Both the position numbers and the translations under genes were made by a program. Below the pieces are notes generated by a model. The model was not told the DNA's origin and made no database searches. It saw only the letters and a program-made list of their open reading frames with translations. 64,000 nucleotides of DNA from contig NZ_JARGNB010000005.1 of NCBI RefSeq assembly GCF_030167915.1, forward strand, positions 186,001-250,000, in the 5' to 3' direction. Below, in pieces: positions 10,782 through 15,740 of this stretch (within the stretch, counting starts at the first letter, position 1; every line of letters starts with the position of its first letter). This stretch comes from Aquabacterium humicola (GTDB lineage Bacteria > Pseudomonadota > Gammaproteobacteria > Burkholderiales > Burkholderiaceae_C).

Positions 10782-12341
10782 TCACTCGGTCAGTTCCGCC
10801 GCGGCGATCGGAATGCGCCGCCGCGGCCGCGCCAGCGCGTACTCGCTTGCGGCCAGAGACGGCCCCAGGAACTCGCGCAGCGTCGGCCCGTTCTTCAGCA
10901 GCCGCGTATCGAAGAGGAACTGCGCGACCTCGTGGAACCAGACGCGTCGCCCCATGCGCGTGTACCAGTGCATCGCGTGGCGGAAGTCGGCGTCGCCGCT
11001 GACCAGCCGCATCAGCGCCTTCGGCCGCAGCTGCATCGCGAGCTCGATCGCCTTCGACCACATGAACACCCGCCACGGCGGCACGCTGCCCGGGGCTTCG
11101 AGCACCTGGTGCTTGTAGTCCCAGCGCCGCGTATCGGGCTGGATCACGCGGCGCTCGATCACCGTGTCATAGAACGGCGTCCAGCGGTGCGGCGTCGCGA
11201 ACAGCAGCTGGACCTGGTCGGGGTCGTAGCGCCACAGGCTGCGCAGCGTGCGCCAGTAGTCGGCGTCGCGCTCCTCGTTGAAGCCGATCATGCAGGTGGC
11301 CATCGAGACGATGCCGTGCTGCCGCAGGAGGCGGATCGCCTGCATGTCCTCGCTCGGCGTCGCGCCCTTGCGGATCGCCTTCAGCGTCGGCTCGTCGACG
11401 CTCTCGATGCCCAGCAGGAAACGGATCACGCCGGCGCGGCGGTACAGGTGCAGGATGTCGGCATCGCGCACGATGTCGCCGGCGCGCGTCGAGCCGACCA
11501 GCAGCAGCGGCACGTGCTCGGCGATCAGCGCCTCGAGGAACGCGCGCCAGGCCTTGCGCGAGCCGGTGGGCAGCTCGTCGGCGAAGTTGACCAGCTCGAC
11601 GCCGTGCTCGCGGTGCAGCCGCGCCAGCTCCTTCGCCAGCTTCACCGGGTCGCGATGGCGCCAGCGGGTCCAGAAGCCGCGCTGGCCGCAGTAGTTGCAC
11701 AGGTAAGGGCAGCCGCGCGCGAACTGCACCACCACCGCGCGCTTGCCGCCCCAGTACGAATAACGCGCATGGTCGATCAGCTCCCAGCCGATGCGGTGCG
11801 CGTCGAGGTCGGCGATCATCTCGGCCGCCGGCGTGGCGATGAGCTCGCCGTCGCGGCGGAAGGCGATGCCGCGCACCGCGTCGAGCGGGCGGCCGTCGGC
11901 CAGTGCGCGCACCAGGGCCGGCGCGGTCGCTTCGCCCTCGCCGCGCACGACGATGTCGATCTGCGGCGCCTCGCGCAGGATCTGATCGAAGTGGTAGGTC
12001 GGATGCACGCCGCCGTAGACCACGAGCAGCCGCGGCAGCGCGAGCTTCAGCAGCGCCGCCAGCGCCAGCACCGTGGCATGCGCCGAGCTCGAGCCGGAGT
12101 GGCCGAGCATCACGATGTCGGGCCGGCGTCGTCGGGCCTCGCGCACGATCCGGCCCAGCGGCATCGCCGCGTGACCGGCGCTGCCCGGCGGCGGCAGCTC
12201 GGCGTCGAGCAGCTCGACCACGAAGCCGGCGTCGATCAGCGGTCCGCCGACCGCCAGCAGCCCGAGCGGCGGCAGGTGCTCGCGCGGGATGCGGCTGCCG
12301 ATCGCGGTGTGCGGCGGGTTGATCAGCAGGACGCGTGTCAT
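10782..12341 (-). CDS. B12-binding radical SAM protein (BchE-like)
   Basis: 519 residues; the ATG at 12341 overlaps the stop of the preceding gene (ATGA). Residues 1-150 form a cobalamin-binding Rossmann domain (MTRVLLINPPHTAIGSRIP, 'LPPLGLLAVGGPLIDAG', 'DIVMLGHSGSSSAHA'). The radical SAM CxxxCxxC follows in 'ARGCPYLCNYCGQRGFW', then the TIM-barrel part ('LLGIESVDEPTLKAIRKG', 'CMIGFNEE'). The layout is that of anaerobic Mg-protoporphyrin cyclase BchE and related methyltransferases and cyclases. No bch or crt cluster surrounds it, so the substrate is open. Oxygen-sensitive chemistry fits the FNR-type promoter upstream of the cytochrome genes with which it may be co-transcribed. Confidence 0.85.
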   Translation of the reverse strand: MTRVLLINPPHTAIGSRIPREHLPPLGLLAVGGPLIDAGFVVELLDAELPPPGSAGHAAMPLGRIVREARRRRPDIVMLGHSGSSSAHATVLALAALLKLALPRLLVVYGGVHPTYHFDQILREAPQIDIVVRGEGEATAPALVRALADGRPLDAVRGIAFRRDGELIATPAAEMIADLDAHRIGWELIDHARYSYWGGKRAVVVQFARGCPYLCNYCGQRGFWTRWRHRDPVKLAKELARLHREHGVELVNFADELPTGSRKAWRAFLEALIAEHVPLLLVGSTRAGDIVRDADILHLYRRAGVIRFLLGIESVDEPTLKAIRKGATPSEDMQAIRLLRQHGIVSMATCMIGFNEERDADYWRTLRSLWRYDPDQVQLLFATPHRWTPFYDTVIERRVIQPDTRRWDYKHQVLEAPGSVPPWRVFMWSKAIELAMQLRPKALMRLVSGDADFRHAMHWYTRMGRRVWFHEVAQFLFDTRLLKNGPTLREFLGPSLAASEYALARPRRRIPIAAAELTE

Positions 12342-12817
12342 CGCAGCGCTCCGGCGCAGCTGGCGACCAGCGCCAGCGCATAGGCGCACTTGCCGGCCGC
12401 GCCGAGCTGCACGCGGGCCAGCGCCTGCTCGGCGAGGCGGCGCGTCGTGCGGCGCAGGCCGCGCTCGGCGGCGCGGAAGCCGAGCCAGGCCGCGGCCACC
12501 GCGGCGGCCGCCAGCAGCGCCGTCGCGGCCGGCCCCAGCCAATCGCCCCGCGCATGGGCGAGCAAGGTCAGCGCCGCCGCCAGCGCCAGCCAATGCAGCC
12601 GCGCGGCCCAGTCGCAGCCGAGCCGGCCGCGCCATTGCGCGCCGGCCACTCCCGCGGCGAGCAGCGTCGCGACGACCGGCGACGCAGGCAGCAGCGCGAT
12701 GCATTGCAGGATCAGCCACGTCACCGGCGGCCAGGCTTCGATTCGGGACGCCCAGCGCAGCAGCCGGGGCAGCTGGGGCGGCCGGCGCGACCGGCGCCAA
12801 CGGGATCGGAAGGACAT
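12338..12817 (-). CDS. Small polytopic membrane protein paired with the radical SAM enzyme
   Basis: 159 residues from ATG 12817. A basic N-terminus (SFRSRWRRSRR) is followed by three or four hydrophobic segments (residues about 37-60, 70-92, 96-118 and a C-terminal one at 140-157), with an amphipathic Arg-rich helix (ERGLRRTTRRLAEQAL) before the last. Its stop overlaps the start of the radical SAM gene by 4 nt, a sign of translational coupling. I do not recognise the family; it may anchor or deliver the substrate of its partner, which is inference. Upstream lies a 121-nt gap to the decaheme gene. Confidence 0.65.
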   Translation of the reverse strand: MSFRSRWRRSRRPPQLPRLLRWASRIEAWPPVTWLILQCIALLPASPVVATLLAAGVAGAQWRGRLGCDWAARLHWLALAAALTLLAHARGDWLGPAATALLAAAAVAAAWLGFRAAERGLRRTTRRLAEQALARVQLGAAGKCAYALALVASCAGALR

Positions 12818-12938: not shown

Positions 12939-13814
12939 TCAGTCCTTCTTCCTCCCGCCCCGCTCCCGTCCGCCGTGCTTGTCCGGTTCCACACGCGGGT
13001 CCCGATGGCACTCCACGCAGTTCTGGAAGTCCCGCACGCCTTCCTCGATGTGCTCCTGGCGAACCTTCGCTTCCGAGTGCTCATGGCACCCATAGCAGGT
13101 GTAGCGGCTGTAGTCGCTGTTCCTGTGACAGGTCTCGCAGGGGGCCTGATGGTCGCGGTCGAGCACGAAGGACTTGTCGTGGTCGAAGGTGGCCGGCTTC
13201 CAGGCGCCGGTCCGGTGGCAGGACTGGCAGCCCCCCTGGACCTGGCGATGCAGGCGGTCGGTCGGCGCGTTGTGGCAGCGCTCGCACCGATCCAGTTCGG
13301 CCTTGGCCAGCAGCGCGTGGTCGAAATGGGCCGGCTTCCATGCCGTGCTCTCGTGGCATTTCGAGCATTCGGCCTTGAGGTCGCGGTGCACGGTGTCCCT
13401 GGGTGTCGCGTGGCAGGAGGAGCAGGTGTCGCGCACGGCGACCTGCAGCAAGCCGTGCGAGAACGGCTTGCGGCTGCGCTTCGTGGACTTCGGGCCCTGG
13501 TGGTCGCTGTGGCAGGCCATGCAGTCCTGCTCGATCAGTTGCTGGTGGAACGACACCTTCACGGTCCGGCTCGGGATCGGCACGCCCTTGGTGGTCTTCA
13601 AGCCGACGTCGGCCGTCACGTGACACGCCGTGCATCGTCGGGACGAGGCGCCGCGCCATGCCGAGTGGCAGGCGAAGCAGTCGGTGGCGAGCTCGGCATG
13701 GCCCTTGACCAGCGGGCCCGGGCTCACCATGAGGTGCGGGTACACGAAGGCCAGCGCCACCAGCACGAGCAGGTTGAGCGCGATGACGACCAGCAGGAGG
13801 GGGCGCTTCTTCAC
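12939..13814 (-). CDS. Membrane-anchored decaheme cytochrome c
   Basis: 291 residues. The start is GTG 13814, overlapping the preceding stop (GTGA). Residues 5-24 are one hydrophobic helix (LLLVVIALNLLVLVALAF) acting as uncleaved signal anchor. Ten CXXCH haem motifs follow, with first Cys at residues 46, 61, 98, 131, 150, 177, 196, 226, 240 and 266. Extra His residues (FHQQ, FSHG, HFDH, TFDHD, RDHQ) can serve as second ligands, as in cytochrome c3/c7-type bis-His haems. Two AWKPA(H/T)FDH repeats show internal duplication. The haem domain would face the periplasm and accept electrons from the cytochrome b encoded just upstream. The C-terminus is basic. No outer-membrane porin partner lies nearby, so the final acceptor is unknown. 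Confidence 0.92.
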   Translation of the reverse strand: MKKRPLLLVVIALNLLVLVALAFVYPHLMVSPGPLVKGHAELATDCFACHSAWRGASSRRCTACHVTADVGLKTTKGVPIPSRTVKVSFHQQLIEQDCMACHSDHQGPKSTKRSRKPFSHGLLQVAVRDTCSSCHATPRDTVHRDLKAECSKCHESTAWKPAHFDHALLAKAELDRCERCHNAPTDRLHRQVQGGCQSCHRTGAWKPATFDHDKSFVLDRDHQAPCETCHRNSDYSRYTCYGCHEHSEAKVRQEHIEEGVRDFQNCVECHRDPRVEPDKHGGRERGGRKKD

Positions 13815-14395
13815 TTCCAGCCCCAGAACAGGAAGACGGCCGCGATGTGGACCGTCGCCAGCACGCTGAACGCGAGCGTGATCGGGAAGTGCACCACGCG
13901 CCACTGCGTGACCACGTCGAAGGTCAGGCTGTCCCAGTACAGCCGGTCCTCGAGCTCCCCTTCGCTCAAGCCGCGGTCCCGCATGCGCTGGCGGGCCTGC
14001 TCCATGCGCCGGCGCGCGCGATCCAGCAGGAACTTGCCGGTCAGGCCGCTGCCCACGTTGATCAGCATGGCCCACACGGCGAGCCATCCGAGGATGGCGT
14101 TGAAATGCACGCCTGCATGCACCAGCACCAGCAGCGATCCGAGCCAGGCCAGCAACTCGTGCCAGCGCAGCAGCTTCGCCGGATGACCGCGCCGGATGAG
14201 CTGCCGCTTTCGCAGCGAGTAGGCGGTGGAGCCGATGATCAGCAGGGTGCCCGGAATGCCCAGCCAGCGGCCGACCCACAGCAGGTCGAACAGGTGCAGC
14301 AGGCCGTCGAAGGCCAGCGCGATCAGCACCAGTGCGGCAAAGCTGCCGAAGAAGGGCAGCACCTCGCGCGTCAGGAGTCTCGGGCGCTGCGGCAT
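13811..14395 (-). CDS. b-type membrane cytochrome (cytochrome b561/b6-like)
   Basis: 194 residues from ATG 14395, which overlaps the stop of the reductase gene (ATGA). There are about five hydrophobic segments. Histidines well placed for haem ligation are H79, H93 and H97 (RWHELLAWLGSLLVLVHAGVHF) and H169 and H183 (VVHFPITLAFSVLATVHIAAV), typical of four-helix di-haem b cytochromes. A charged loop (RARRRMEQARQRMRDRGLSEGELEDR) joins the halves. Its position between a cytoplasm-facing reductase and a periplasm-facing decaheme cytochrome points to transmembrane electron transfer. The haem assignment is by motif only. Confidence 0.85.
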   Translation of the reverse strand: MPQRPRLLTREVLPFFGSFAALVLIALAFDGLLHLFDLLWVGRWLGIPGTLLIIGSTAYSLRKRQLIRRGHPAKLLRWHELLAWLGSLLVLVHAGVHFNAILGWLAVWAMLINVGSGLTGKFLLDRARRRMEQARQRMRDRGLSEGELEDRLYWDSLTFDVVTQWRVVHFPITLAFSVLATVHIAAVFLFWGWK

Positions 14396-15639
14396 CAGGC
14401 CTCCAGCACCACGGCCGAAGTCGGCCGGCCGACGCAGAGCAGGCAATGGCCGGGCGCGACGTCGTGGTCGGGTGCGTGGTCGTACTGCACCGTGCCTTCG
14501 AGCAGGCGGGTCTCGCAGCTCCCGCAGCCGCCCGAGCGGCAGCCGGACTCGACCACGATGCCGTGCCGCTCCGCGAAGTCGAGCAGCGAGGGATCCCGGC
14601 CCTCCCAGGCCAGCGTCCGGCCGGAGCGCCTGAACCGCACGTCGAGTGCTGCGGCGGGCGACGCCGGCGCTTCAGGTGTCCCGGGCAGCCTGACGGATGC
14701 CGGGCCGAAGGCTTCGTAGTGGAGGTCCGCAAGCGGCACCCCCCAGGCCGCCAGGGCCGGCACCAGCGCCTCCATCATGGCCGGGGGCCCGCAGACGTAG
14801 AACTGGTGGCGTCCGTGCGGCAAGGTGCGCCGCAACAGGTCGACATCGACATGGCCGCGGTGCTGGTAGTCGCGACCTTCGACATCGGTCTCGCCGGGCC
14901 GGCTGTAGACGATGTGCAGGCGCAGCGGCGGGTGAGCGGCGGCCATCTGCTCGAGCACCGGCTTGAAGGCGTGCTCGTGGCCGTGTCGCAAGCCGTAGTA
15001 CAGGTGGACCGTGCGCTGCGGCTGTTCGGCCAGGCACCAGCGCAGCATGCTCATCATCGGCGTGATGCCGATGCCTCCGCCGATCAGCACCACCGGCACG
15101 TTCGGGTCCGGGTCGATGAAGAAGTGCCCGGCCGGGGCCTTCAGGCGCAGGACGTCGCCGACCCGCACGTGGTCATGGAAGTGGTTCGACGACAGGCCCG
15201 GCGCGAACTCGGGGTGATCCGCCGGCGGCGGCACGCGCTTGATCGTCACGCGGTAGAAGGACGGATCGGGACGATCGGACAACGAGTAGCAGCGCGTGAT
15301 GACGCGCGATCCTGCGGTGGCGGGCGAAGCCGGCGGGCCGACCTCCAGCGTGAAGGTCAGGAACTGCCCGGGCTTGAATGCCGGCAGCGGCTGGCCATCG
15401 ACGGGCTGCAGGTGGAACGAACACTGCGACTGCGCCGGGTCCTCGAAGGCGCGCTGCACGACGCGAAACGCGCGCCACCCGGCCCATGCACTCGTCGACG
15501 GCGCCGCCCCTTCGAGCCCCGTTGCAGCGGGCGCCATCGCCGCCGCCGCCCGCCGGCGCATCACCGTCACGCCGACCCCTGCCATCAATTGCAGCAGCAG
15601 CGCGGCAATGATCAGTCCGAGCAGTTCAACGGCGGTCAT
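14395..15639 (-). CDS. Membrane-anchored FAD/NAD(P)/2Fe-2S oxidoreductase
   Basis: 414 residues. An N-terminal helix (residues 4-26) tethers it to the membrane. The ferredoxin-reductase FAD domain follows (RCYS at 116-119, with the flavin-binding beta-barrel), then the NAD(P) domain (GGGIGITP 187-194, YVCGPPAMM 281-289). The last domain is a plant-type ferredoxin with Cys367-X4-Cys372-X2-Cys375-X26-Cys402. This FAD-NAD-2Fe2S order is that of Hcr and phthalate dioxygenase reductases. It is the first gene of a three-gene set with 4-nt overlaps and would feed NAD(P)H electrons to the cytochrome b. An FNR-type site lies upstream. Confidence 0.92.
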   Translation of the reverse strand: MTAVELLGLIIAALLLQLMAGVGVTVMRRRAAAAMAPAATGLEGAAPSTSAWAGWRAFRVVQRAFEDPAQSQCSFHLQPVDGQPLPAFKPGQFLTFTLEVGPPASPATAGSRVITRCYSLSDRPDPSFYRVTIKRVPPPADHPEFAPGLSSNHFHDHVRVGDVLRLKAPAGHFFIDPDPNVPVVLIGGGIGITPMMSMLRWCLAEQPQRTVHLYYGLRHGHEHAFKPVLEQMAAAHPPLRLHIVYSRPGETDVEGRDYQHRGHVDVDLLRRTLPHGRHQFYVCGPPAMMEALVPALAAWGVPLADLHYEAFGPASVRLPGTPEAPASPAAALDVRFRRSGRTLAWEGRDPSLLDFAERHGIVVESGCRSGGCGSCETRLLEGTVQYDHAPDHDVAPGHCLLCVGRPTSAVVLEA

Positions 15640-15691
15640 CGATCAGGGTGGCGCCACACGGTCCGGTCCACCTGGCGCGTGGCGAGCGGGT

Positions 15692-15740
15692 TCGATCGAT
15701 TCTGGGGTGGTGCCGCTCGCACCCGATTGACTGCGATCAA
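15692..15740 (-). promoter_or_regulatory. FNR/Anr-type class II promoter of the electron-transfer operon
   Basis: On the minus strand TTGATCGCAGTCAA (15740-15727) matches the FNR consensus TTGAT-N4-ATCAA at 9 of 10 half-site positions. A -10 hexamer CAGAAT lies at 15704-15699, predicting +1 at 15692. The box centre is then exactly at -41.5, the classical position for class II FNR activation. The leader is 53 nt long. Anaerobic induction is inferred. Confidence 0.7.

Follow-up and report, generated by a model that had tools for sequence, protein, structure and literature searches.

Three genes for a proposed membrane redox chain

Three adjoining genes on the minus strand of a 64 kb stretch of the Aquabacterium humicola genome (contig NZ_JARGNB010000005.1, positions 186,001 to 250,000; 'the window' denotes this whole stretch) encode an NAD(P)H reductase, a membrane cytochrome b and a multihaem cytochrome c, here called g1, g2 and g3. 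A first-pass annotation made from the sequence alone had proposed this composition, and it is borne out by open reading frames, Pfam matches and motifs. The genes are transcribed in the order g1, g2, g3 (15639→14395, 14395→13811 and 13814→12939). The g1 product (14395–15639, minus strand; 414 amino acids) is anchored by an N-terminal transmembrane segment and combines FAD and NAD(P)H domains with a 2Fe-2S domain at its C-terminus; g2 (13811–14395, minus strand; 194 amino acids) is a five-helix membrane cytochrome b; and g3 (12939–13814, minus strand; 291 amino acids, GTG start) is a putative membrane-anchored periplasmic decahaem cytochrome c with ten CXXCH motifs. Stop/start overlaps of 4 nucleotides (nt) had been claimed throughout; this holds for g2/g3 (GTGA at 13811–13814), but g1 and g2 overlap by 1 nt (TGATG at 14395).

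The reductase matches Pfam families NAD_binding_1 (1.3e-22) and Fer2 (3.6e-11), with FAD_binding_6 at 18.8 bits, slightly under its cut-off of 21.1. A single hydrophobic stretch followed by arginines forms the N-terminus, and the closest PDB match is the flavohaemoprotein 1cqx (E 9.2e-52, residues 42–313, reductase part only). Among 27 aligned proteins (of 54 at hand, window included), cysteines C367, C372 and C375 never vary, and C399 and C402 are almost as constant.

For g2, an alignment of 30 of the 56 proteins at hand, window included, revealed six invariant histidines: H34, H79, H93, H97, H169 and H183. Four of these form two HX13H pairs on two helices (H79/H93 and H169/H183), an arrangement shared with the NADPH oxidase (NOX)/ferric reductase proteins; g2 has no Pfam match at 0.01, and so none to PF01794, the ferric reductase-like transmembrane domain of that superfamily. 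Residues 116–120 form an invariant SGXXG. Compared with the inner-membrane signature of PCC3 porin-cytochrome loci (SGXXG plus two WX3HX13H), g2 has the SGXXG and both HX13H pairs and carries W165 at −4 on helix 5, but L75 on helix 3. Five helices are visible in the predicted structure. One might speculate that H34 and H97 are ligands of a third haem or line a site. The protein is also a distant relative of the PCC3-type protein encoded in its own genome (27% over 110 residues).

The g3 protein matches cytochrome c3/c7-type Pfam families and is the sole frame within the window with two or more CXXCH motifs; its predicted model is poor (pLDDT, the predicted local distance difference test, 53.7). 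Across the 73 rows of our comparison, g3 carries eight CXXCH motifs in 48, ten in 21 and twelve in 1; of the remainder, one with seven ends at a contig end and two are partial. The window protein is thus decahaem, as first annotated, but this is not a defining trait of the family, 48 of 73 rows having eight. The difference lies in a two-haem stretch at 13263–13400 (minus strand; residues 139–184, boundaries approximate), which is a gap in most eight-haem relatives. Two adjoining 46-residue units of the window protein are identical at 21 of 46 positions, the similarity that duplication of such a unit would give. By g2, the window is most closely related to L040, which has eight haems, whereas L039 has ten; haem number thus shifts between near neighbours. 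In an alignment of 31 of the 55 g3 proteins at hand, window included, eight histidines outside the CXXCH motifs are invariant, matching the common haem number of eight, and a ninth is present in 28. No aligned protein has fewer non-motif histidines than haems (31/31), so bis-histidine ligation is possible throughout, as suits an electron wire.

Conservation of the gene order and promoter

A g2 scan of a named genome collection yielded 49 loci, 48 of them close and one distant (L087, Desulfobacteraceae). Within the close set, a g1 open reading frame of about 400 amino acids or more lies beside g2 in 44 loci (L083 among them, with an odd g1 C-terminus), and g3 is present in 47, the exception running off its contig. 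Contig ends cut three of the g3 genes; the L082 copy of g2 is short, and that of L083 is cut. The g2/g3 overlap is exactly 4 nt in 47/47 loci, while g1 and g2 overlap by 1 nt in 17/44 and by 4 nt in 11/44 (28/44 together). The three-gene order, which the first-pass annotation had suggested checking across related genomes, is therefore conserved. Among the genera named in the records are Ideonella, Piscinibacter, Curvibacter, Roseateles, Rhodoferax, Rubrivivax, Novosphingobium and Sphingomonas.

We also sampled more broadly. Of 399 genomes sampled from the order, 36 gave a g2 match at E 0.001, a close one (at least 50% identity) in 11; the other 25 matches are weak or partial, and 16 of these 25 genomes also carry a PCC3-type protein at E < 1e-30. 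A phylum-wide sample gave g2 profile matches in 31 of 398 genomes. Twenty stretches were retrieved, from 19 phylum-sample genomes plus G387 from the order search, and a g1 of more than 250 amino acids adjoins g2 in 12. A plasmid search with g2 gave no match. The g2–g3 pair of L064, a metagenome bin titled Klebsiella pneumoniae, groups with Burkholderiales and alphaproteobacterial sequences, and the title is probably misassigned.

Upstream of g1 lies an FNR-family dyad, TTGATCGCAGTCAA (15727–15740, minus strand), which matches TTGATNNNNATCAA at 9 of 10 positions. It is the sole match in the window at 9/10 or better, against 19 at 8/10 or better. A −10 hexamer, CAGAAT (15699–15704, minus strand), begins 36 nt from the box start. 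At class II promoters the box centre lies 29.5 nt before the −10 element, and this is the spacing found here: the box is centred 41.5 base pairs upstream of a predicted start 7 nt past CAGAAT, just as first annotated.

This arrangement recurs. Of 53 regions upstream of g1, a set that counts the window and a few near-duplicates, 25 carry the core TTGA-N6-TCAA, compared with 0.2 expected under a first-order Markov model and at most 2 in 200 simulation runs. Restricting the scan to −130 to −60 in the 44 genomic loci with enough sequence gave 20 with a core box, against 0.09 expected from the density in those loci themselves. Of NANAAT hexamers sought 15–59 nt from the 25 boxes, 15 were found, 13 at an offset of 36 and 2 at 35, so that all 15 sit at class II spacing. 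Inner box bases vary among relatives, which argues that conservation is not merely shared ancestry. We conclude that the candidate FNR-like box is not a chance match, and that the claim of an FNR-type class II architecture, a dyad at −41.5 of the predicted start with a −10 element at fixed, conserved spacing, stands up. As to a cognate regulator, the genome has 26 matches to a Crp-type helix, 21 of them over the cut-off, and one gene combines the C-x2-C-x5-C signature with the ETVSR recognition helix of FNR. About 1 kb from this FNR gene is a g1-like reductase match with one in-frame TGA (G000:C23:455504-457576; L137, L092).

The trio is flanked upstream by LysR and MFS genes and downstream by a BchE-like radical SAM gene and an EPSP-type gene, with a lipase gene next beyond. 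In agreement with the first annotation, no porin or terminal reductase is among these five scanned neighbours. None of the five matches anything in the 48 related loci at 1e-20, so the trio travels as a unit. The BchE-like gene (10782–12347, minus strand) scores 516.5 bits against TIGR02026, anaerobic cyclase (cut-off 481.35), and hinted at phototrophy. We reject that link, since a search of the genome found no reaction-centre gene and the BchE-like protein is among the neighbours that find no counterpart.

Elsewhere, P-type cation ATPases are the commonest neighbours: they occur in 15 of 48 loci, with no fixed side or strand (one is a 135-amino-acid piece), and none of the three tested passed an ion-specific NCBIfam cut-off. 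Among 96 scanned neighbour proteins of 203 candidates, 15 matched the ATPase C-terminal domain, while Usp, cytochrome b561 and HATPase_c were each matched by 4. Usp proteins and P-type cation ATPases are typical low-oxygen company. In 69 loci searched, VIT-family genes were seen near the trio in L066, L069, L080, L081, L086 and L114, and a catalase-peroxidase gene in L114 and L080, with only its end in L049.

A proposed route for electrons and its rivals

With moderate confidence, we favour a reading of the trio as a transmembrane electron exporter of split NOX/MsrQ-like design that is expressed when oxygen is low. The gene order, domains, motifs and promoter architecture are observed, as is their conservation; from them we infer each step beyond the motifs, namely FNR binding, cofactor filling, topology, direction, preference for NADH, donor, acceptor and purpose. 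FNR would bind the dyad at −41.5 and turn on the operon. Anchored g1, with its catalytic domains in the cytoplasm, would take hydride from NADH (or NADPH) to FAD and pass single electrons to its 2Fe-2S cluster. These may then move to a cytoplasm-side b haem of g2 (H79/H169), across to a periplasm-side b haem (H93/H183) and on to g3, a tethered wire of 8 to 12 putative bis-histidine haems, which would deliver them to soluble periplasmic carriers or oxidants. Its likely role would be to keep redox in balance when too little oxygen reaches the oxidases.

Positive residues fit this proposed topology under the positive-inside rule (RRR after the g1 helix, g2 loops 60–70 and 121–150, KKR before the g3 helix), and the recurrent P-type cation ATPases and Usp neighbours would suit the low-oxygen setting. 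Moving electrons outwards without a proton pump would spend membrane potential, which suggests a valve rather than a coupling site. No outer-membrane conduit is required near the trio. Obligate partnership with a PCC3-like conduit was considered and rejected: of the 399 genomes of the order, 21 have a PCC3-type protein (E < 1e-30), 11 have a close g2 and 3 have both, all from one family.

Several observations weigh against export from NADH under FNR control. The core box is absent from 28 of the 53 upstream regions and from 10 scanned loci outside the order that have g1 or a remnant of it, so this mode of control is not shared by all loci. Where a box exists, the NANAAT hexamer is missing from its proper place in 10 of 25 cases. 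The box alone cannot tell FNR from the NO-sensing DNR or from FixK-type regulators, and the genome has many Crp/Fnr genes. The g2 model is of moderate quality, and fold searches and comparison with it were uninformative. In 13 of 73 rows g1 is missing or broken while the g2 and g3 frames remain open; in these g2 must draw electrons from some other donor, and the NAD(P)H reductase is not an obligatory part. A clear g1 orthologue elsewhere was also lacking in 7 of 10 searched genomes without an adjacent intact g1, one of the seven (G064) having only a g2 fragment.

The pattern of g1 absence was mapped on a g2 tree built from 70 distinct rows after three identical ones had been removed. It needs 10 changes, 9 of them forced by well-supported branches, and a single gain of g1 is therefore rejected as the full explanation. 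Shuffled labels need 12.2 changes on average, and 26 of 500 shuffles need as few as 10, so that the g1 label is only weakly clustered. Eight g1-less loci were inspected: clear g1 remnants lie upstream of g2 in L062, L086 and L124, an N-terminal remnant in L125 and a possible one in L122, while no scar was seen in L080, L127 and L130. Repeated loss of g1 fits the distribution best; its origin is less certain, a deep branch (L127–L129) being without it. Some gaps may reflect faulty assembly, since many rows come from metagenome bins. The g2–g3 pair is the core of the system, and g1 its usual yet replaceable input.

The other three of the ten genomes (G416, G438 and G466) have a g1 relative of 44–48% elsewhere. 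In G416 and G466 it sits in a four-gene cluster, alike in both, with a second protein (which in G416 has cyclic-nucleotide and 4Fe-4S domains), a membrane protein and a multihaem protein. This second cluster type, seen in L132 (7213–13382) and L134 (6781–13835), comprises a g1-like reductase with a transmembrane anchor, a protein with cyclic-nucleotide-binding and 4Fe-4S domains (L132 alone was run against Pfam), a membrane protein outside any Pfam family and a multihaem protein, which has 10 CXXCH motifs in L132 and 7 in L134 before the contig ends. Each of the four proteins has its match in the other locus.

Because g2–g3 outlives g1, the most serious rival is a quinol-linked conduit, in which g2 would be a quinol-oxidising dihaem cytochrome b feeding g3, and g1 an accessory input. 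The cytochrome b part of CbcL is an analogue for such a g2. On the deepest g2 branch, G408, G478 and G489 show no g1 orthologue, and for comparable proteins with five transmembrane helices He et al. (2017, PMC5566968) suggested an exchange with quinone, although that suggestion is itself a hypothesis. The position of g1 argues the other way: it is directly upstream in 44 of 48 close loci, and in 28 of them its end overlaps the start of g2 by 1 or 4 nt. We consider a quinol conduit rather unlikely as the principal role.

The histidine counts bear on a different proposal, that g3 is itself a catalyst that uses NAD(P)H electrons to reduce a periplasmic oxidant such as nitric oxide, peroxide, nitrite or a metal. 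With at least as many non-motif histidines as haems in every aligned protein there is no obvious open haem, and the only reductase among the PDB sequence matches of g3 is an ammonia-forming nitrite reductase at E 0.76. Such detoxification therefore seems improbable, in spite of the kinship of g1 to the flavohaemoglobin reductase and the catalase-peroxidase genes, or gene end, near three of the loci. Electron flow in the reverse direction, with an inward wire that draws on Fe(II) or another donor in the periplasm or outside the cell to make NAD(P)H, is very improbable. The same genome does have a PCC3-like porin-cytochrome locus, of a type discussed for Fe(II) oxidation (PMC5566968), but driving electrons to NAD(P)H against the membrane potential without energy input is unfavourable, a low-oxygen promoter suits export better, and a PCC3-type protein accompanies a close g2 in only 3 of the 11 g2 genomes of the order sample, all one family.

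Returning to the exporter, a broader and more tentative possibility, which we put forward with some doubt, is that the trio belongs to a widespread, unnamed Proteobacterial electron safety valve. This would have a modular g2–g3 core, a wire whose length shifts by whole two-haem units, and swappable cytoplasmic inputs; in Burkholderiales and their kin the input would be a dedicated NADH reductase under FNR class II control, dumping NADH electrons into the periplasm without proton pumping. If so, many aerobic Proteobacteria would possess a low-oxygen path that leads from NADH straight to the periplasm independently of quinones, and models of anoxic survival and of reactions with periplasmic or extracellular oxidants would change. 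Direct tests are within reach, the module being compact, conserved and found in cultured genera. Its natural variants (8, 10 or 12 haems, reductase present or absent) also offer a series in which to follow the growth of haem wires and the exchange of electron inputs.

Comparison with known systems

The first-pass annotation knew of no named pathway with this composition. The literature searched (titles and abstract openings) likewise held no paper on the trio, but the general kind had been noted in 2017: He et al. (PMC5566968), in the parts on 'Other multiheme cytochrome c' clusters, describe clusters, mostly porin-less and mostly including another redox protein, in which a periplasmic multihaem cytochrome lies by an inner-membrane protein with five transmembrane helices and two HX13H motifs. 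In those clusters, which may or may not be the same as the trio, the membrane protein is said to come downstream of the cytochrome, unlike here; sections 17–18 of that paper do not give the regulator or reductase type. The trio is thus new as a variant of an uncharacterised kind already noted by these authors. An unnamed decahaem cytochrome without a nearby porin, which may or may not be g3, is also mentioned for some Leptothrix relatives in PMC13386937.

PCC3 loci share the HX13H pairs and SGXXG with g2, and for the PCC3/PCC4 inner-membrane proteins, which carry this motif set, He et al. argue for two b haems (PMC5566968). PCC3 has a porin and an extracellular cytochrome beside it and the trio has neither, as judged from the five flanking genes and from the frames of the window, none of which other than g3 has at least two CXXCH motifs. 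The g3 protein is far smaller, and a reductase subunit is not named among the PCC3 parts. The PCC3-like locus of the same genome (G000 C41, L088 1063–12372, minus strand) encodes a 332-amino-acid g2-like membrane protein, a 27-CXXCH protein, a 70-CXXCH open reading frame and then a frame whose end looks beta-barrel-like by eye; one PCC3 example quoted in PMC5566968 has 63 and 21. Nor does g3 reach the cut-off of the MtrA/DmsE decahaem family, TIGR03508, against which it scores 25.8 bits (cut-off 192.2).

The flavohaemoglobin Hmp shares its FAD and NAD domains with g1, but the globin part lies outside the match and g1 adds a transmembrane anchor; the flavohaemoglobin model NF009805 is matched at profile positions 147–396 only (237.5 of 432 bits) and its cut-off missed. 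The 'NADH oxidoreductase' model NF007964, which we take to be Hcr, gives a match that runs through the 2Fe-2S end at 104 bits (cut-off 383); none of the five scanned neighbours is an hcp gene. A parallel in operation would be with the NADPH oxidases/ferric reductases and Fre-MsrQ (MsrPQ), in which a cytoplasmic NAD(P)H-flavin enzyme feeds two stacked b haems across the membrane and an acceptor outside. MsrQ-like systems are also treated in PMC8238504. The trio would work alike, but it is split into separate genes, adds a 2Fe-2S domain, has a g2 that escapes PF01794, and uses a multihaem wire as the acceptor.

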